Assembly: GCF_006542275.1 (NCBI RefSeq)
Contig: NZ_CP041217.1
Coordinates: 806,001-870,000, forward strand
Source: Saccharibacillus brassicae
GTDB taxonomy: Bacteria; Bacillota; Bacilli; Paenibacillales; Paenibacillaceae
Reading direction: 5' to 3'
DNA length: 64,000 nucleotides
The notes below the pieces were generated by a model, which worked only from the letters and a program-made list of their open reading frames with translations, was not told where the DNA came from and ran no database searches. Numbering within the stretch: the first letter of the stretch is position 1; each line of letters starts with the position of its first letter. This document shows positions 4,361-63,748 of the stretch, in pieces. The translations under genes and the position numbers were made by a program.

Positions 4361-5314
4361 TTGGACGCTTACCTATTCGTGCATTTCAAGGAAAAAAAGA
4401 CGCCGGACGGCGAGCAGGTCTATTTTGCGCTCAGCACGGACGGCTTTCATTGGGACACGGTGAATGGCGGACAGCCGGTGCTTGAGAGCAGACTCGGGGA
4501 AAAAGGCGTCCGCGACCACACGATCGTGCGCACGGACGAAGGCAAATTCCATATTCTCGCGACCGACCTCAGCCTGGCGAACTCTTTTCACGGCAAATAC
4601 GAAGGAGATTGGGCCAATATCGGCACCGGCGGAAGCCGTAATCTGTCGCTCTGGTCGTCGGACGATCTCGTGCATTGGTCGGAGCAGCGGCTGATCGAAC
4701 TCGGCGACGACGATTTCGGCTGCCTGTGGGCGCCCGACATCATTCGCGATCCGCAGCAGGGCGACTACGTCGTCCACTGGTCTTCTTCGCACGCGTCCAA
4801 CGGCTACGGGCCGAAAGCGATCTACTACTCCCGCACCCGGGACTTCGAGCAGTTCACCGCACCGAAGCTGCTGCACCGCAAAGCGGACAGCGGCATTATC
4901 GATTCGGCGATCTACGAAGAAGACGGCTATTTCTACCGCTTCCTCAAAAGCGAAAAAAATCCCGAGACGCTGATCCTGGAAAAAGGAGCTTCGCTGACGG
5001 GAGACGACTATGTGCGCAATGATGCTTTTGACGAAGAAATGGCGAAGCTTGAGCAGGGCGTGTACGAAGCGCCGACCGCTTTCCGGCTCCGCGACGGCAA
5101 ATGGTGCCTCATGCTCGACTTCTACGGCGTCGAAGGCGACGGCCAGGGCTACGTCCCGTTTATCGCGGACAGCCTCGCCGACGGACGCTTTATCCGTTCC
5201 GACGCCGACTTCAGCTTCCCGTACGGCTTCAAGCACGGCACGGTGTTAGGGATTACGCAGGAGGAATATGCGCGGATCAAGGAGTATTATGGTGCGGGGC
5301 TTGTGGATGGGTAG
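4361..5314 (+). CDS. GH43-like glycosidase, probable arabinosidase
   Basis: Five-bladed propeller glycosidase of the GH43/GH62 clan, probably releasing L-arabinose or xylose from plant oligosaccharides. Visible features are the N-terminal YLFVHFKEK...GEQVYFALS strand pair, GVRDHTIVRT with a candidate catalytic Asp at residue 52, GCLWAPDIIRD, and VYEAPTAFRL carrying a Glu that could be the acid. Length is 317 aa and there is no signal peptide, so it is likely cytoplasmic. I chose the TTG at 4361, eight bases after GAGG; a longer in-frame extension runs antisense through the AraC gene and is not credible. The stop codon begins a 9-bp tandem repeat. Exact specificity is not readable. Confidence 0.85.
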   Translation: MDAYLFVHFKEKKTPDGEQVYFALSTDGFHWDTVNGGQPVLESRLGEKGVRDHTIVRTDEGKFHILATDLSLANSFHGKYEGDWANIGTGGSRNLSLWSSDDLVHWSEQRLIELGDDDFGCLWAPDIIRDPQQGDYVVHWSSSHASNGYGPKAIYYSRTRDFEQFTAPKLLHRKADSGIIDSAIYEEDGYFYRFLKSEKNPETLILEKGASLTGDDYVRNDAFDEEMAKLEQGVYEAPTAFRLRDGKWCLMLDFYGVEGDGQGYVPFIADSLADGRFIRSDADFSFPYGFKHGTVLGITQEEYARIKEYYGAGLVDG

Positions 5315-5385: not shown

Positions 5386-5525
5386 GTCGATTCGCGGCGC
5401 AGATCGCGGCGCAGACAAACTCGGCGAATCGCGAAAGTTAGAGTATCGTGCAATCTTATAGTTTGATACTCTTAAAACCTTATACTCCCATATCTTCATA
5501 TCCGCACACTCTTACAGCTGTACAT

Positions 5526-5627
5526 CCTTACACCTTTACACCTTTACACCTTTACACCTTTACACCTTTACACTTTTACACTTTTACACTTTTACACTTT
5601 TATATCTTTACACCTTTACACCTTTAC
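5526..5627. repeat. 8-bp tandem repeat array (CCTTTACA and variants)
   Basis: About twelve units with period 8, with CCTTTACA drifting to CTTTTACA in the middle. It is purely simple sequence with no spacers, and directly abuts a different 7-bp array. Confidence 0.9.
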
Positions 5628-5724
<97 letters not shown>

Positions 5725-5734
5725 AGGGGTCGAC

Positions 5735-6024
5735 CGAATTAACGTCCTGATGACACTTATTTTGAGCAAAAAGCCGTCAGAATCGCAAATAATTGCGTAG
5801 CGACACTTAATTGCCAGGAAAACGGGTTTTTCCGTATCTATCAGGCAAAATAACTGCTCTCACGCACTTATTTCGATCGGCAGCTATAGGCGGAGTAAAA
5901 TAACTGCCCTCACGCACTTATTTGGCTCGAAAGCATAAGCAGACTGAAATAACTGCTCTCACGCAGCTATTTCGATCAATACAGCCATAGCAGAGTGAAG
6001 CAACCGTTTCCTCACCGTTATTTT
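5735..6024. repeat. Composite hairpin-repeat element, copy A
   Basis: Six imperfect inverted repeats of the form AAATAACTGC-N6/8-GCACTTATTT. Cores begin near 5735, 5786, 5847, 5897, 5946 and 5996, so spacing is about 51, 61, 50, 49 and 50 bp. The wider gap holds a GGAAAA...TTTTCC stem. No reading frame is kept across the units. A second copy in inverse orientation with the same spacing pattern lies at 59417-59661. The type is unknown to me: it could be a REP-like dispersed palindromic family or a non-autonomous mobile element. Confidence 0.85.
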
Positions 6025-6116
6025 GGAGAGAACGCTCGAAATAACAAACACTGCCTGCCCGCGTTAAAGCTCATTAAGGCTCATTAAAGCTTATTAAATT
6101 TTTTTCACATAAATAG

Positions 6117-6145
6117 TTGACAGCTAAATTAGAAGCGCGTATAAT
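6117..6145 (+). promoter_or_regulatory. Consensus sigma-A promoter for tRNA-Pro
   Basis: TTGACA at 6117-6122 and TATAAT at 6140-6145 with a 17-bp spacer, both perfect consensus. The tRNA starts 26 bp after the -10 box. Confidence 0.93.
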
Positions 6146-6170: not shown

Positions 6171-6244
6171 CGGGATGTAGCTCAGCTTGGTAGAGCACCT
6201 GGTTTGGGACCAGGGGGTCGCATGTTCAAATCGTGTCATCCCGA
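6171..6244 (+). tRNA. tRNA-Pro (anticodon UGG)
   Basis: All cloverleaf parts are visible. The acceptor arm CGGGATG pairs with the 3' CATCCCG, the D arm is GCTC...GAGC, the anticodon stem CCTGG/CCAGG encloses loop TTTGGGA (anticodon TGG), and the T arm contains GTTCAAATC. The discriminator is A at 6244; CCA is not encoded. It is a single-gene unit with its own promoter and terminator. Confidence 0.96.
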
Positions 6245-6328: not shown

Positions 6329-6826
6329 CTAGGAAGAAACTTCCGGCCGTACGCCTTCGTTCGCTTCCGCCCGCGCTTGTCGGATGCGGTCGATTTGACC
6401 GAGATGCCGCTCGACGTGAGCCGCAAAGCCGCGCGCGATATCGGCGACGCTGACCGTTGTGCCCTGGGCGTTCACGCCGCTTTTCGCCCATTCGTGCGGT
6501 TGAAGCCGGGCCAGCAGCCGGGTGTTATACCGCAGCAGCGCTTCGAAATCTTCCAAAATGCCGGCCGCGGAACTTTCGTTCGTCCGCTGCCCGTCTACCC
6601 AGGCATCCTGGGCAAGCGCCGGCAGTCTCTCCGTCGATCCCGCCAGCACGGCGCGAATGCGGAACGATACGACGACGGAATGGTCGGTCAGATGGCCGAG
6701 CACTTCGGCCACGCTCCAGCGGTCCGGCGCCGCTTTCCAGTGGAGAGCCGTTTCGTCCAGCCCTTCGACGGCCTGCCTCAACCGGGGAGAGGTGCCGAGC
6801 ACGTCGGCCACGATTTTTTCGCTCAT
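6329..6826 (-). CDS. DinB-family protein (putative metal-dependent hydrolase)
   Basis: Four-helix-bundle protein of the DinB/YfiT superfamily, 165 aa. The motif WSVAEVLGHLTDH supplies one candidate metal-binding His, and HVERHLGQIDRIR near the C-terminus supplies another pair; this H...H-x-x-x-H arrangement is the usual one. Members are often bacillithiol-dependent transferases or of unknown activity, and no precise reaction can be assigned. The ATG at 6826 follows GGAGGAAG. The gene starts 45 bp from a 193-bp TTTGGG hexamer array, which therefore occupies its expected promoter region. Confidence 0.85.
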   Translation of the reverse strand: MSEKIVADVLGTSPRLRQAVEGLDETALHWKAAPDRWSVAEVLGHLTDHSVVVSFRIRAVLAGSTERLPALAQDAWVDGQRTNESSAAGILEDFEALLRYNTRLLARLQPHEWAKSGVNAQGTTVSVADIARGFAAHVERHLGQIDRIRQARAEANEGVRPEVSS

Positions 6827-56962: not shown

Positions 56963-57979
56963 ATGACAGTACGTTTCGCGCGCGCCGGGTTCCCTTACGA
57001 AGCCATGTTCGACAAAGGGGACATTCTGGAGCGGCTTGATATTGCGGTCCATTGGGGCCATTACGAAATCCGCGTGCTGCGCTTCCATCTGACGTCGTTC
57101 GAGCCGGGGCGCATCATCAATTTCCATAATCATTCGACGTACGAGTTCCATTTCATTCCGCGCGGAGCGGGCCGGGTCATTCTCGGCGACCAGCCGCACT
57201 CGCTGTCGGAAGGGCTGCTGTATCTGACCGGGCCGGGCGTCATGCATTATCAGGAAGCCGACGGCGCCCAGGCGATGGACGAGCTGTGCCTGCACGTCGA
57301 TATCGTGCGCCGGCCCAATCCTTCCGTCGATCCGTGGGAAGCGGCGGAAGCCGAAGAATGCATGCAGAAGCTCAATGCGCTGCCGCTGCGTCCCGCCGCC
57401 GACAGCCACGGCGCCATGCCGTGCTTCCTGCAGGCGTACGAAGCGTGCGAGAGCAAACGGATCGGCTATTATACCGATATCCGCATGCAGGTGATCGGCA
57501 TTCTGCTCAAAACGATTCAGGCGTACGATTCCGGCGATACCGGCACGGAAGCGCCCAGCCGCGACATGGCGGCTTACCGTTACGATTACGCTGTCCGCTA
57601 CATGGAAGCGAATTACACGTCCGGCCTGCGGTTGGAAGACGTCGCGGAGAAGCTGGATCTCAGCCCGCGGCAGCTGCAGCGCATTTTCCGCGGCGTCGAT
57701 CGCGAGCGGCCGTTCAGCCGCGTGCTGGAAGACATCCGTCTTCAGGCCGTCTGCGACCGGCTGCGGACCGGCAGCTTGTCGATCGAGCGGATCGCGGAAC
57801 TCGAAGGCTTCTCGACCGCCGCTTACCTGCATACCGTTTTTCGCAAACGAATGGGGTCGTCCCCGTCCGTCTACCGCAAAGCCAAGCAATCCGAGCTGCA
57901 CCGGCATCCCGCCGACACGCCGCCCGGACAGATCGACCACTCCCCAAACGAGGTGAATATCTATGAGCCAAACGTATAA
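56963..57979 (+). CDS. AraC-family transcriptional regulator
   Basis: A 338-aa regulator. Cupin sensor: NFHNHSTYEFHFIPRGAGRV and LLYLTGPGVMHYQEAD, with conserved histidines. The DNA-binding part has GLRLEDVAEKLDLSPRQLQR, then SIERIAELEGFSTAAYLHTV with G-S-S-P-S-V-Y-R-K. ATG immediately follows the stop of the upstream dehydrogenase gene, and its 3' end overlaps the next dehydrogenase by 17 bases, so all three are one operon. Confidence 0.93.
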   Translation: MTVRFARAGFPYEAMFDKGDILERLDIAVHWGHYEIRVLRFHLTSFEPGRIINFHNHSTYEFHFIPRGAGRVILGDQPHSLSEGLLYLTGPGVMHYQEADGAQAMDELCLHVDIVRRPNPSVDPWEAAEAEECMQKLNALPLRPAADSHGAMPCFLQAYEACESKRIGYYTDIRMQVIGILLKTIQAYDSGDTGTEAPSRDMAAYRYDYAVRYMEANYTSGLRLEDVAEKLDLSPRQLQRIFRGVDRERPFSRVLEDIRLQAVCDRLRTGSLSIERIAELEGFSTAAYLHTVFRKRMGSSPSVYRKAKQSELHRHPADTPPGQIDHSPNEVNIYEPNV

Positions 57980-59057
57980 AATCGGCATCGTCGGCTGCGG
58001 CGGAATCGCCAACGGCAAACATCTGCCGAGCCTGAGCAAATTGAACAACGTCGAACTGGTCGCTTTCTGCGATCTGGTGCCGGAACGCGCAGCCGAAGCG
58101 GCATCCCGATACGGAGCCGAAGGCGCCGCCGTCTATACCGATTACGCCGAACTGCTGCGCGACGCTTCGATCGATATCGTGCACGTCCTGACGCCGAACG
58201 AATCGCATGCGACGATCTCGATCGCCGCGCTCGAAGCGGACAAGCACGTCATGTGCGAAAAACCGATGGCCAAAACGGCCGCCGAAGCGCGCCGCATGGT
58301 ACAGGCGGCGGAGCGCAGCGGCAAAAAGCTGACGATCGGCTACAATAACCGGTTCCGCCCGGACAGCCAGCATCTGAAAAAAGCGTGCGAAGCCGGCACG
58401 CTCGGCCATATCTACTACGCCAAAGCCCACGCGATCCGCCGCCGCGCGGTTCCGACCTGGGGCGTATTCCTCGACGAAGAGAAGCAGGGCGGCGGCCCGC
58501 TGATCGATATCGGCACCCACGCGCTCGACCTGACGCTGTGGATGATGGACAATTACAAGCCCAAAGTCGTGCTCGGCACGAAGTACCACGAGCTGTCCCA
58601 ACGCGAGAACGCGGCCAACGCCTGGGGACCGTGGAACCCGGCCGAATTCAAGGTCGAAGATTCGGCGTTCGGCATGATCGTCATGGAGAACGGCGCGACG
58701 GTCACGCTGGAATCCAGCTGGGCGCTGAACTCGCTCGACGTGGACGAAGCCAAATGCAGCCTGAGCGGCAGCGAAGGCGGCGCGGACATGAAGAATGGCC
58801 TGCGCATCAACGGCGAAGAATTCGGCCGACTGTACACGAAGGAAGTCGACCTCTCCGCCGGCGGCGCAGCCTTCTACGAAGGCAGCGCGCAAAGCGATGC
58901 CGACGTGGAAATGTTCCGCTGGATCGAAGCGATCCAGCACGACCTGACGCCGACGGTCACGCCGGAACAGGCGTGCGTCGTCTCGGAAATTTTGGAAGCG
59001 ATCTACGAATCGGCCCGTACGGGCAAAGCGGTGTATTTTGACGAGTCGGAAGGGTAA
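57963..59057 (+). CDS. Gfo/Idh/MocA-family oxidoreductase
   Basis: A 364-aa NAD(P)-dependent dehydrogenase. The N-terminal GIVGCGGIANGKHLPSLSKL is the dinucleotide fold, VHVLTPNESHATISIAALEA and CEKPMAKTAAEARRM (the EKP motif with the catalytic Lys) follow, and GGGPLIDIGTHALDLTLWMM carries the conserved His. The ATG has GAGGTGA upstream, inside the AraC gene. It may act in sequence with the first dehydrogenase of the operon; no transporter or kinase gives the substrate. Confidence 0.94.
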   Translation: MSQTYKIGIVGCGGIANGKHLPSLSKLNNVELVAFCDLVPERAAEAASRYGAEGAAVYTDYAELLRDASIDIVHVLTPNESHATISIAALEADKHVMCEKPMAKTAAEARRMVQAAERSGKKLTIGYNNRFRPDSQHLKKACEAGTLGHIYYAKAHAIRRRAVPTWGVFLDEEKQGGGPLIDIGTHALDLTLWMMDNYKPKVVLGTKYHELSQRENAANAWGPWNPAEFKVEDSAFGMIVMENGATVTLESSWALNSLDVDEAKCSLSGSEGGADMKNGLRINGEEFGRLYTKEVDLSAGGAAFYEGSAQSDADVEMFRWIEAIQHDLTPTVTPEQACVVSEILEAIYESARTGKAVYFDESEG

Positions 59058-59076: not shown

Positions 59077-59252
59077 GACTGGGGACGCGGCGGCGCGGGT
59101 GGCGCGACAGGCACGGGGACGCGGCGGCGCGGGTGGCGCGACAGGCACGGGGACGTGGCGGCGCGGGTAGCGCGACAGGCACGGGGACGTGGCAGCGCGG
59201 GGGACGCGACAAGCACGGGGACTCGGCGGCGCGAGTAGCGCGACAGGCACGG
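59077..59252. repeat. 34-bp GC-rich minisatellite
   Basis: About five copies with an exact 34-bp period; the GCACGG anchor recurs at 59111, 59145, 59179, 59213 and 59247. It starts 20 bp after the dehydrogenase stop codon. The period is not a multiple of three, which argues against a coding role. Confidence 0.9.
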
Positions 59253-59416: not shown

Positions 59417-59661
59417 AGAAATAGATGCGTGGGAGCAGCTAATTTCTTCCGTCCGCTAGTACTGTGAGAAATAACTGCGTGAGGGCAGTTATTTTCTTCG
59501 GGCCGCCTACGCCGCGAGAAATAACTGCGAGAGAGCAGTTATTTCATCGCTCGGGCAGCGAAAAGCTCTTTTTTCCGCAAAATAAGTGGATCTGTGCAGT
59601 TATTTTCGATCCGGGCGGCTTTTGAGCGAAAATAAGTGGATTTACGCAGTTATTGCTGCTG
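59417..59661. repeat. Composite hairpin-repeat element, copy B (inverted)
   Basis: Five units begin near 59417, 59467, 59517, 59578 and 59628, so spacing is 50, 50, 61 and 50 bp. Units two and three are perfect hairpins: AAATAACTGC, six bases, GCAGTTATTT. Read on the minus strand, the order (two AAATAACTGC...CCACTTATTTT units, a 61-bp step holding GGAAAA...TTTTC, then B-type units) mirrors copy A at 5735-6024. Confidence 0.85.
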
Positions 59662-59875: not shown

Positions 59876-62800
59876 TTAGATGCCTGCGCCGCGGTCTTGG
59901 CCGTCTTTTGGCGCTTCGGTGCCGTCATTCGCGCCTTCGCCGGCCTGTTCGTCGGCTGCAGGGCGTTCCCCTTCACCGGCAGTGTGTTCGGACTCCGGCT
60001 GCTGCGAAGCCCGGCGCTGCGCGCCTTCGCCGTCGGCGTGATCGGAGCCGGCCGCGCTCGGCTGTGCCGGTTCGCTGTAGCCTTCGTCGGCCTGAACAGA
60101 CGACAGTTCGGCTTCGGAGACCCGAGCGAACTGGGCTTCCGCTTCGGCCGCTGCATCCGTGACGTGCGGATCTGCCGAGGCCGCTTCCGCGCCTTCGACA
60201 TTCGGCCCGGTCGAGCCGTGCTCGTCAGCCCGAGCCGGATCTTCAGTCAGATCCGCCGATTCGGCTTGTTCGGTCCGATCCGCGCCTTCGATCCGACCTG
60301 CCTGTTCGGCCTCGTCCGTCCAATCGGCCTCTTCGACCCAATCCGACTGTTCACCATCCTCAGCCTGATCCACCTCTTCGACCCAATCCGCCTGTTCGGC
60401 CGCTTCGGTTCGATCAGCGCCTTCAACCCAGTCCGCCTGTTCGCCCTCCTTGGCCCGGCCGAAATCTCCGCTCTCCCCGGCTGCATCGCCGGTTCCCGCT
60501 TCGCCATCTCCGCCCGTGTCTTCAACCCGGTCTCCAGTCGCCTCGCCGACTCCATCTCCGCCCGCGTCTTCAACCCGGTCTCCAGTCGCCTCGCCGACTT
60601 CATCTCCGCCCGCGTCTTCAACCCGGTCTCCAGTCGCCTCGCCGACTTCATCTCCGCCCGCGTCTTCAACCCGGTCTCCGGTCGCGTCGCCGTATCCAGT
60701 CGCCTCGCCGACTTCATCTCCGTCTCCGCCCACTTCGCTATCCGATTCGCGATCCGCCGCCGCTTCCGCAGCTTCGGCCGCTCGGGCCGCCTGCTCCGCG
60801 CGCTCGTCGGCTTCGAGCTGCCAGCGCTCGAACTTCTCCTGCTCCGCCGGAATATCGGCTTCGTTCAGCGCTTCGGCGGAGACGCGGAATTCGCCGCTGC
60901 GAATCCGGATGCGGACCCAGCCTCCGGTAATGACGCCGAGGTCGATGTAGCGGTCGGCGGCGATGTCTTTTTTCTCCCATTCTTCATGCCGGACGATAAA
61001 GCCGAGGCTCGCAGCATCGGGTGCCACTTCCAGCAGCACCGACGCCACGCCGCCCTGCTCGCCGAGGAAATCGACGCGCCGGCTGCCGAAGGAAGCGCCC
61101 CACATCCACAGATTCCAGCCCGCGTAATCGAGATCTTCGCGCTCGTATTCCAGAATGAGCTTGCGCGGCGTATATTCGCGCACTTTCAGCGCCAGCTGCG
61201 CCTGCACGCCGTCGCCGGACACCGAGATAACCGCGCGGCCCGGGCGCATGCCCGTTACGCGGCCGGCCTGATTGACGGTCGCGATGCCGACATCGCTCGA
61301 ACGCCATTCCAGGCGCGAAGCGGACATCGGGTTGCCGAACGGATCTTTCGGTTCGGCCCGCAGCTTGAGGCTGCGCCCGACGTACAGGCGGCGCACTTCG
61401 TCTTCCATGGCGATGCCGAGCTGGTGCAGCGTGCGGCGCTCGATCAGAATCGCCGTGCTGCTCTGCATATCGCCGCAGACCGCGGTGATCAGCGCCCGGC
61501 CCTGCCCGATCGTCCAGGCCGAACCGTCGCGCCGGATGATGATCTTCTCGGGATCGGAAGACAGGTACGAGACCGGCACTTCGGGCATGCGGCGCCCGCG
61601 CTGATCCCGCACGGTCGCGTGCAGGAACACTTTCTCGCCGGGCTGGACAACGCCCGGCATGTTTTCCCATTCGAGCTGCGCCGGCTCCGGCACGTAATCG
61701 TCTTCTTCGTCGTACAGCACCAGGCTCGACAGCGGCGGCACGCTTATGTAATCGCCCGTCTCGCCCAGCACCTGCGTGCCGGCCCGGCGTCCGTCGACGA
61801 CGATCTTCCACGGCCGTCCGCGCGCCGGCAGTTCGATGCCCTGCTCCGATTCCGTCGCGTTGTGCACAACGGCGATCGTCCGCCACAAGTCGCCGCCGGC
61901 ATGGTCGTTCAGCGTAAAGCCGACCACTCCGCCGTGCATGCGGAACACGTCCATATGTTTTTCGATATCGCCGCGCGTCTTGAGGCGGAACGCCCGGTGC
62001 GAGCGTCTCAGCTCGATCAGTCCCCGGATATAATCCGTGACCGGATAGAACCGGTCTTTGTTGTTCCAGCGGATCGCGTTGACCGCGTCCGGGCTGCGAT
62101 AGCTGTTATGGTCGCCGAATTTGCTGCGCAGCAGCTCGTCGCCCGCGCTGATAAACGGAATGCCCTGCGAAGTGAGCACGAGCCCGTAGGCGAGCAGCTG
62201 TCTTTTGACCAGATCATGTTCCAGCGGATCTTCGCCGAGCATACGGTGCGGATCGCAGGCCGCGACCGCTTCGGCCGCCGTCTGGCCCGACGCCGGCTTG
62301 CCGTTGTCGAATTCGATCAGCCCCGCCGCTTCCCACTGTCCGCGCGACTTGACCAGCTTGTCCCACAGAATCAGGTTGTCATGCGCAGTGACGTAATTGA
62401 CGCTCTCCGCCGGTTCCGCCGCGAAATCGTGGACCGATCCGCGCAGTCCCTGCGCAACCTCGCCTTCCTTGCCGGGCGCGCCGCTGATAAAGCCGGTTCC
62501 CCAGCCGTCGCCGTCGCCTTTGAGCGCGTTGCGGAAGTTGTCGTTGAACACGGCGAAGCCTCCGCCCTGCTGGGACCCTTTGAGCGTCAGCTCGCGCAGC
62601 GGCGAATCCAGCGCGGTCCACGGCTCGCCGTAGATCAGAATCGTCGGATCGACTTTCTCGTGCAGCACCGACGCGACCGTGCGCATCGTCGTCGTGTCGA
62701 TCAGGCCCATCAGGTCGAACCGGAACCCGTCGATATGGTATTCTTCCGCCCAGTACAGCAGCGAATCGAGAATGTATTTGCGCACCATCGGGCGTTCGGT

Positions 62801-63748
62801 CGCCAGTTCGTTGCCGACGCCGGAACCGTTGCTGAGCTGCCCGTATTTGTTGAACCGGTAATAATAGCCCGGCACCACCGGATCGAACGGCCCGTCTTCG
62901 ACCGAAAACGTATGGTTGAACACGACGTCCACGACGACGCGGATGCCCCGGGCATGCAGCGCCTGTACCATCTTTTTCAACTCGCGGATCCGGGCTTCCG
63001 GATTGTGCGGGTCGGACGAATACGAACCTTCCGGCACGTTGTAGTTTTGCGGATCGTACCCCCAGTTGTACGCATCGGGCGTCACGTCGCATTCGTTGAG
63101 CGTGCAGTAATCGTACACGGGCAGCAGATGGACGTGCGTCACGCCCAGTTCTTCCAGATGGTCGATCCCGATCTTGCGGCCTTCACGGGTCCGGATGCCG
63201 CTCTCGGCAAACGCCAGATACTGGCCGGAATGGTTCATCTTCGCGTCTTCCGAAGAAGAAAAGTCCCGCACATGCAGCTCGTAGACGACCGAATCGACCG
63301 CATGCCGAAGCGGCGGGCGAAGATCGTTCTCCCAATTCTCGGGATCGGTACGCTTCATGTTGACGATCGCGCCGCGCTGGCCGTTGGCCGACGAAGCTTT
63401 GGCGTACGGATCGACCACGTACCGGCTGTTCTCGTGTTCGCCGATTTTGTACGTAATGTGATAGAGGTAATAATGTCCTTCGAGATCGCCCGGCACGACG
63501 ATGCTCCATACCCCGTACTCGTCTTCTTCCATCGTCAGTTCGCGTCCGCCGGAATGGTCGGTCACCCGCCCGTCGGCTCCGTACGTGCCCGCGTCTTCGT
63601 AAATCGCGATCCGCACCTGTTCCGCGCCGGGCACCCACACCTTGAACGTGCAGTACTGCGGCGAAAACGTCAGTCCCAAATCCCCGTAGGGATAAGCTTC
63701 GAAATCGGGACAGTCCAGCGTATCGTTAAAGTTCAGCATATCGGTCAT
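59876..63748 (-). CDS. pulA: Type I pullulanase with Ig-like, CBM41-like and acidic repeat tail
   Basis: About 1290 aa, debranching alpha-1,6 bonds of pullulan, starch or glycogen. An N-terminal early-set domain (~15-115) precedes the GH13 barrel with the type I motif YNWGYDP (227-233), nucleophile D345 in DGFRFDLMGL, acid E375 in YGEPW and D457 in VTAHDN. After the C domain comes a Big_2-type Ig-like region (WRSSDVGIATVNQAGRVTGM), then a CBM41-like module (LEYEREDLDYAGWNLWMWG). The last ~290 residues are acidic and disordered, with four 16-residue repeats (VEDAGGDEVGEATGDR). No signal peptide is seen. The ATG at 63748 has a GGGGGAAGGG site. Confidence 0.9.
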   Translation of the reverse strand: MTDMLNFNDTLDCPDFEAYPYGDLGLTFSPQYCTFKVWVPGAEQVRIAIYEDAGTYGADGRVTDHSGGRELTMEEDEYGVWSIVVPGDLEGHYYLYHITYKIGEHENSRYVVDPYAKASSANGQRGAIVNMKRTDPENWENDLRPPLRHAVDSVVYELHVRDFSSSEDAKMNHSGQYLAFAESGIRTREGRKIGIDHLEELGVTHVHLLPVYDYCTLNECDVTPDAYNWGYDPQNYNVPEGSYSSDPHNPEARIRELKKMVQALHARGIRVVVDVVFNHTFSVEDGPFDPVVPGYYYRFNKYGQLSNGSGVGNELATERPMVRKYILDSLLYWAEEYHIDGFRFDLMGLIDTTTMRTVASVLHEKVDPTILIYGEPWTALDSPLRELTLKGSQQGGGFAVFNDNFRNALKGDGDGWGTGFISGAPGKEGEVAQGLRGSVHDFAAEPAESVNYVTAHDNLILWDKLVKSRGQWEAAGLIEFDNGKPASGQTAAEAVAACDPHRMLGEDPLEHDLVKRQLLAYGLVLTSQGIPFISAGDELLRSKFGDHNSYRSPDAVNAIRWNNKDRFYPVTDYIRGLIELRRSHRAFRLKTRGDIEKHMDVFRMHGGVVGFTLNDHAGGDLWRTIAVVHNATESEQGIELPARGRPWKIVVDGRRAGTQVLGETGDYISVPPLSSLVLYDEEDDYVPEPAQLEWENMPGVVQPGEKVFLHATVRDQRGRRMPEVPVSYLSSDPEKIIIRRDGSAWTIGQGRALITAVCGDMQSSTAILIERRTLHQLGIAMEDEVRRLYVGRSLKLRAEPKDPFGNPMSASRLEWRSSDVGIATVNQAGRVTGMRPGRAVISVSGDGVQAQLALKVREYTPRKLILEYEREDLDYAGWNLWMWGASFGSRRVDFLGEQGGVASVLLEVAPDAASLGFIVRHEEWEKKDIAADRYIDLGVITGGWVRIRIRSGEFRVSAEALNEADIPAEQEKFERWQLEADERAEQAARAAEAAEAAADRESDSEVGGDGDEVGEATGYGDATGDRVEDAGGDEVGEATGDRVEDAGGDEVGEATGDRVEDAGGDGVGEATGDRVEDTGGDGEAGTGDAAGESGDFGRAKEGEQADWVEGADRTEAAEQADWVEEVDQAEDGEQSDWVEEADWTDEAEQAGRIEGADRTEQAESADLTEDPARADEHGSTGPNVEGAEAASADPHVTDAAAEAEAQFARVSEAELSSVQADEGYSEPAQPSAAGSDHADGEGAQRRASQQPESEHTAGEGERPAADEQAGEGANDGTEAPKDGQDRGAGI
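60505..60710. repeat. 48-bp in-frame tandem repeat in the pullulanase tail
   Basis: GTCTTCAACCCGGTCTCC recurs at 60518, 60566, 60614 and 60662, an exact 48-bp period coding 16 residues. The near-identity at DNA level points to recent duplication. Confidence 0.93.

Follow-up and report, generated by a model that had tools for sequence, protein, structure and literature searches.

The window, which is the whole 64-kb stretch of the Saccharibacillus chromosome under analysis, contained two noncoding arrays of 26-bp dyads, designated A and B (Table 1). Array A, with steps of 50, 61, 50, 49, and 51 bp between unit starts, was flanked on the left by a glycoside hydrolase-like gene and on the right by a tRNA gene and a DinB-like gene, and array B, with steps of 50, 50, 61, and 50 bp, was located between convergent genes. 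The flanking genes were called by a codon model that had been trained on reading frames rich in third-position GC, and their product names were assigned by reading the sequences.

An earlier note on this DNA had described two inverted copies of a hairpin array with the same internal architecture, and the observation was confirmed overall, with units and steps remapped. Read on the minus strand, copy B had the order 50, 61, 50, 50, as in copy A, and the units at 59469 and 59519 were indeed perfect 10-bp stems with 6-nt loops. The GGAAAA...TTTTC stem assigned to the 61-bp step lay within the central 35-bp linker in copies A and B alike but was not conserved across the wider family. Of the interpretation offered at the time, the proposal of a selected, repeated, noncoding element with fixed internal spacing and copies elsewhere was supported; the readings as hairpins or structured RNA and as a REP/BIME-like family were not. 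The 26-bp pattern had 7 matches in the window versus 0 in each of 100 shuffles, and 183 matches in the genome versus 0 for a reversed-pattern control, so chance is excluded.

Other repeats and signals were seen close to the arrays. Immediately to the left of array A, two simple arrays (5512-5724) shared its intergenic region, TTACACCT in 14.5 copies (5512-5627) and CTCGCAT in 13.9 copies (5628-5724, 100% match), which are likely fast-mutating repeats. A strong sigma-70-like promoter of the tRNA gene (TTGACA...TATAAT; 6116-6145) was recognized by eye about 90 bp beyond the end of array A. A 34-bp GC-rich tandem repeat (59081-59252; 5.1 copies, 89%) was located between the gene at 57963-59057 and array B, just right of that gene's 3' end. 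Toward its 3' end, the pullulanase-like gene contained 45- and 48-bp repeats (60273-60692) encoding a repetitive acidic C-terminal tail, GDRVEDAGGDEVGEAT, and matches to this gene in relatives began outside the repeat region.

Table 1. Arrays A and B, their units, and the neighboring genes (positions in the window)
Feature	Position	Strand	Remarks
Glycoside hydrolase-like gene	4361..5314	+	Codon-model call; named by sequence look; 3' end facing A
Array A, six units, 287 bp	5737..6023	.	Defined by units and spacings; top-ranking 10-bp A/T periodicity in window
A unit 1, AATTAACGTCCTGATGACACTTATTT	5737..5762	-	26-bp imperfect dyad; array oriented minus by consensus
A unit 2, AAATAATTGCGTAGCGACACTTAATT	5787..5812	-	
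A central 35-bp linker	5813..5847	.	Makes the 61-bp step; contains GGAAAACGGGTTTTTCC; dyad center of element
A unit 3, AAATAACTGCTCTCACGCACTTATTT	5848..5873	-	
A unit 4, AAATAACTGCCCTCACGCACTTATTT	5898..5923	-	Closes 187-bp core
A unit 5	5947..5972	-	Extra unit, 49-bp step
A unit 6	5998..6023	-	Weak extra unit, 51-bp step
tRNA gene	6171..6244	+	Rfam RF00005; 147 bp right of A
DinB-like gene	6329..6826	-	Codon-model call; 3' end facing A
Gfo/Idh-type oxidoreductase-like gene	57963..59057	+	Codon-model call; 3' end facing B
Array B, five units, 237 bp	59419..59655	.	
B extra unit, AAATAGATGCGTGGGAGCAGCTAATT	59419..59444	+	Outside core
B core unit 1	59469..59494	+	Perfect dyad
B core unit 2	59519..59544	+	Perfect dyad
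B central 35-bp linker	59545..59579	.	Makes the 61-bp step; dyad center
B core unit 3	59580..59605	+	
B core unit 4	59630..59655	+	
Pullulanase-like gene	59876..63748	-	Codon-model call; repetitive C-terminus; 3' end facing B

Family size, core frame, and distribution

Further copies were found both in the genome and in relatives, and the earlier count of two was a large underestimate: at least 59 arrays were mapped in the chromosome (5,619,468 bp, one contig), and a profile search showed a few more. The core of these arrays was nearly invariant and consisted of four 26-bp dyads whose start positions were separated by 50, 61, and 50 bp, for a total length of 187 bp. Among 204 steps in the window's own genome, 141 were 49 to 51 bp and 62 were 60 to 62 bp, with nearly the same distribution in other genera; spacing was thus rigid while linker sequence was free. 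The number of units per array ranged from 3 to 23 and was mostly 3 to 8, extra units being added at 49 to 51 bp, and the 23-unit locus was found at chromosome positions 1379910-1381059. Conservation fell at the outer boundaries of the first and fourth units, and the flanks had no common terminal sequence. A CRISPR array was rejected as an identity for the element, given the diverged repeats, the 3 to 8 units in most arrays, the single fixed 61-bp step, and the many loci.

The half-site consensus was RAATARNTGC, and each unit combined one strong and one weak half. The strong half-site, AAATAACTGCG, was on the left in units 1 and 2 and on the right in units 3 and 4, with uncertain orientation in some diverged copies, so that the core reads -> -> <- <- and is dyad symmetric about the 35-bp linker. 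A giant palindrome formed by long-range pairing of unit 1 with unit 4 and unit 2 with unit 3 was also considered and rejected, as such pairing was little above independence.

In a pattern scan of named genomes, the family was present in Saccharibacillus, Paenibacillus, and Cohnella among the matches listed, and the single match to a Porphyromonadaceae MAG among them is probably due to chance or contamination. The profile search detected the family in 48 of 120 sampled Paenibacillaceae genomes, representing 16 of 19 genera in a patchy distribution; the profile was derived from Saccharibacillus, and the counts for distant genera are therefore lower bounds. A two-unit pattern matched only the window's own genome among 151 genomes sampled across the class, this stricter pattern also missing some family members. 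Within Saccharibacillus, 9 of 17 genomes carried the family and the other 8 had no detected match, and the carriers were the genomes nearest that of the window by flank-gene identity.

The arrays of Paenibacillus and Cohnella kept the 50/51-61-50/51 frame with unrelated linkers, and the core letters differed by lineage (P. sacheonensis, AAATAAGTGC; elsewhere, AAATACCTGC and AAATAACTGG). Some species had plain 51-bp arrays without the 61-bp step. A separate 51-bp repeat with CAAAAGCTGCATATCAGCAGCTTTTC cores in Paenibacillus sacheonensis (L242:5199-5530) mimics the unit and its spacing; it is probably a 17-codon coding repeat and was omitted from the unit statistics as a chance match. A literature search with the unit sequence and for Paenibacillus or Saccharibacillus repeats returned no relevant match. 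The arrays make up a genuine family of DNA elements in bacteria that has no description in the literature searched or in Rfam.

Stem arms, A/T phasing, and inheritance

A functional hairpin would require its two arms to change together, and the arms were found to vary independently in five genome groups. Across the ten stem pairs of 235 distinct units from the window's genome, 1732 matches were observed versus 1744 expected from independent arms; one pair (5/20) exceeded expectation, at 170 versus 146. Four other groups behaved alike: P. sacheonensis; P. timonensis, P. phocaensis, and P. rubinfantis; P. terrigena; and Cohnella. Compensatory changes, which the earlier note had suggested looking for, were thus absent overall from the stems of all five groups. 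RNAalifold predicted 0 pairs in a consensus of 44 elements, and an Rfam search of the window returned only the tRNA gene (RF00005) and no match for the arrays. The hairpin reading therefore fails. Arrays of structured RNA or REP-like hairpins working in mRNA 3' ends would be in keeping with the hairpin-like appearance of the units, some of them perfect, and with their location 3' of genes, but the pairing results oppose them and RNA hairpins have no need of a fixed helical spacing; we consider such a function extremely improbable. The lack of overall covariation is as expected of protein half-sites, and independent half-sites are the mode used by dimeric DNA-binding proteins.

The REP/BIME elements of enterobacteria (RAYT, Y1 transposases) are likewise short imperfect palindromes in oriented clusters, with tens to hundreds of extragenic copies located 3' of genes, and the placement of the present family agrees with theirs. 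Unlike them, however, it had no arm covariation, a rigid 50-61-50 helical frame, and no near-identical dispersed copies. Furthermore, the REP transposase family PF01797 (Y1, RAYT/IS200-like) was detected in control genomes but neither in the window genome nor in any of the nine Saccharibacillus carriers. Membership in REP/BIME thus fails on both the hairpin and the transposase, and a RAYT transposase was rejected as a partner of the elements.

A strict 10-bp phasing of A/T content, which had been missed in the earlier note, ran through the elements. The period was 10.00 ± 0.01 bp across the whole element and about 30 bp outside it, and 9.90 ± 0.02 bp in the linkers alone. In the family as a whole, A/T peaks were located at the dyad and one turn to each side of it, symmetric about the central base pair. 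The amplitude was about 0.3 in the center, 0.10 at 100 to 130 bp, and zero by about 140 bp from the center, and flanks at 160 to 250 bp from the element center had no 10-bp A/T periodicity. The 50- and 61-bp steps correspond to 5 and 6 turns of the 10-bp register, and for approximately 19 to 24 turns, in units and linkers alike, the A/T-rich steps were on a single helical face. In an unsupervised scan of the 64-kb window, 187-mers overlapping arrays A and B ranked first for 10-bp periodicity. The plain 51-bp arrays of other species, lacking the 61-bp step, were also periodic.

The phasing was shared between genera to a greater extent than the bases were. None of 1000 within-linker shuffles reached the observed phasing, either for the linkers of the window's genome or for those of other genera, and the linker phase was -0.110 rad in the former versus -0.103 rad in 32 elements of the latter. 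Between-genus base identity of linkers was 0.297, 0.304, and 0.257 versus an A/T-class agreement of 0.588, 0.577, and 0.525; identity was thus about half of class agreement, indicating that little beyond the A/T pattern is common to the genera. Descent of the linkers from a common ancestor could account for part of the periodicity within one genome, but the cross-genus test opposes this as the whole story.

The earlier note had also raised the possibility of a mobile element, and current mobility was not supported. Dispersed copies had a maximum identity of 80% and a mean of 68%, and the near-identical copies were local tandem duplicates. In one relative (G002), 17 of 25 arrays examined were, by both flanks, at the locus of an element of the window genome, and in a second (G009), 6 of 8 arrays were at such loci. 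Orthologous elements were compared by gapped alignment with a nonorthologous baseline, since 1-bp spacing changes make ungapped comparison misleading. At common loci, units were 0.72 identical (baseline for unrelated pairs, 0.67) and linkers 0.61 (baseline, 0.51), and flanking intergenic identity was 0.57, close to its baseline of 0.53. Some loci, such as that of array B, had no units in the relatives checked, and at two loci compared genus-wide, several relatives had none, the flanking intergenic DNA being too diverged for clean junctions. Together, the common loci, the local duplicates, and the loci without units indicate that the elements have for the most part been passed on at fixed positions, with local duplication and occasional loss or gain.

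These observations bear on an old nonautonomous mobile element, similar to a MITE or an attachment site, in which the dyads would be sites of a recombinase or transposase formerly responsible for spreading the element, and its synaptic complex would be served by the phasing. The dispersal in tens of copies, the patchy occurrence in close relatives and in the family, the tandem duplications, and the 10-6-10 dyads, whose layout is similar to that of recombinase core sites, would fit such an origin. However, the low identity of dispersed pairs, the shared loci in G002, the end of conservation at the outer units, the nearness of the Saccharibacillus carriers to the window's genome, and a unit number that varies from 3 to 23, unlike that of a bounded transposon, speak against it, and we regard it as unlikely.

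The family is repeat-like by dispersal, protein-site-like by sequence, and nucleosome-like by phasing. Pneumococcal BOX/RUP and similar small bacterial repeats are also modular and intergenic, with a variable internal unit number and tens of copies, but BOX/RUP modules are not known to follow the helical pitch strictly or to have a single frame in different genera. Eukaryotic nucleosome-positioning sequences share the A/T steps every ~10 bp over 150 to 200 bp, symmetric and otherwise free in sequence; the present elements differ from them in being bacterial, in having four specific dyads at discrete loci, and in being known from sequence rather than from histone binding.

Gene ends and candidate wrapping proteins

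The elements were located mostly 3' of genes. Among 48 element-bearing intergenic regions with both neighbors assigned (a 49th, which had one neighbor unassigned, was left out), 23 were convergent, 24 codirectional, and 1 divergent. Convergent regions were overrepresented relative to a 400-kb background (23/48 versus 27/249; Fisher P = 2e-8), and divergent regions were underrepresented relative to long background regions (1/48 versus 15/59; P = 7e-4). Array A, 147 bp upstream of a tRNA gene, indicates that the 3' placement rule is not absolute. A divergent, promoter-side placement was rejected: it came from a gene caller that picked antisense shadow open reading frames in this GC-rich genome, 40 of whose proteins had no Pfam match, and retraining, which yielded plausible genes, reversed it. 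Operator arrays of a large regulon would typically have tandem dyad sites with cooperative spacing, as seen here, but with a single divergent region, most arrays downstream of genes, and functionally diverse genes among the flanking ones examined, this function is highly improbable.

From GC skew, the origin lies at about 2.4 Mb and the terminus at about 5.3 Mb. As 33 of 51 loci were in the origin-proximal half (P about 0.05), there was no terminus bias, and clustering at the terminus was rejected. Two low-GC islands of the same chromosome, at 600001-620000 (41%) and 1960001-1980000 (44%) versus about 58%, had few codon-model genes and are possible acquired or phage-like regions (G000:C1; L284 and L288, respectively).

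On the basis of these features, we consider it somewhat probable that the elements are binding sites at gene ends for a DNA-wrapping protein assembly. Each element would be a double-stranded DNA site on which a protein assembly wraps about 190 to 240 bp, with protein dimers recognizing the 26-bp dyads, the AT minor grooves turned inward to face the protein surface, and the DNA curved through about one turn of a superhelix. When the sequence period falls short of the helical repeat of 10.5 bp, a left-handed path is indicated, as it is for nucleosomes, and the 10.0-bp period thus suggests such a nucleosome-like path here; both wrapping and handedness are read from sequence periodicity. Such a complex may form a boundary of an architectural or topological kind, in which a block of nucleoprotein would limit transcription read-through or constrain supercoils where transcription units converge. 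Given the location of the elements 3' of genes, with convergent neighbors in half of the cases, a boundary would be the most likely job, although a 3' location is also one in which any insertion that is tolerated survives.

Gyrase (or topoisomerase IV) was weighed as the protein, the elements then being loading sites equivalent to BIME-2 or strong gyrase sites that absorb positive supercoils at gene ends. Escherichia coli gyrase prefers phased G/C content, its motif has arms with a 10.75-bp period and a nonperiodic 36-bp center, and BIME-2 elements are enriched in gyrase cleavage (PMC6379681). Like the E. coli motif and strong gyrase sites (Mu SGS, BIME-2), the elements have a long degenerate motif, phased A/T-G/C content, and dyad symmetry about a center; furthermore, their 35-bp center with 50-bp arms recalls the 36+47+47 layout, and the 3' and convergent location fits. 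However, relative to the E. coli reference motif, their period is 10.00 rather than 10.75 bp, their center is as periodic as the arms, and they extend over 190 to 240 rather than 130 bp with four sequence-specific dyads. In addition, gyrase is present universally, whereas no element was detected in 8 of 17 congeners. Loading sites of this kind are very unlikely, and gyrase fits poorly as the wrapping protein, given its motif period.

A RemA-type ring is the best lead for the wrapping protein. Bacillus subtilis RemA footprints comprise at least six AT-rich 7-bp protections with 3-bp gaps (a 10-bp register) and are modestly conserved, and DNA is proposed to wrap around the octameric ring (PMC8481266). 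The elements, as putative sites of RemA or a relative in which an octamer or 16-mer would touch the AT-rich minor groove at each turn, share with the RemA-bound repeats of B. subtilis (PepsA) poorly conserved AT-rich segments in a 10-bp register, and RemA is encoded in all 17 congeners. However, RemA sites are promoter-upstream direct repeats and RemA is a known promoter activator, whereas the elements avoid promoters, being 26-bp dyads in a fixed frame 3' of genes. RemA was also nearly identical in carriers and noncarriers, so it explains neither the presence or absence of elements nor the half-site shift between genera, and it was rejected as a carrier-specific partner. That the elements are sites for RemA or a relative is quite unlikely; more generally, one universal wrapping protein would not explain the congeners without a detected element.

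A more specific form of the wrapping proposal, which is doubtful and is offered tentatively, is that the family is a nucleosome-positioning counterpart in Paenibacillaceae: dispersed, partly position-conserved sites of ~190 to 240 bp in which the A/T phase and the four-dyad frame would program left-handed wrapping on a dedicated chromatin protein and form topological boundaries at gene ends. Dispersed bacterial repeats are usually taken as palindromes or transposon debris; the signal common to genera here is DNA geometry, and element positions persist while the surrounding intergenic DNA diverges. The split between carriers and noncarriers within one genus constitutes a natural comparison for finding the protein. 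If a protein does wrap these sites, they would amount to a bacterial nucleosome-like particle programmed by sequence and would offer a defined substrate for studying the insulation of transcription-unit ends.
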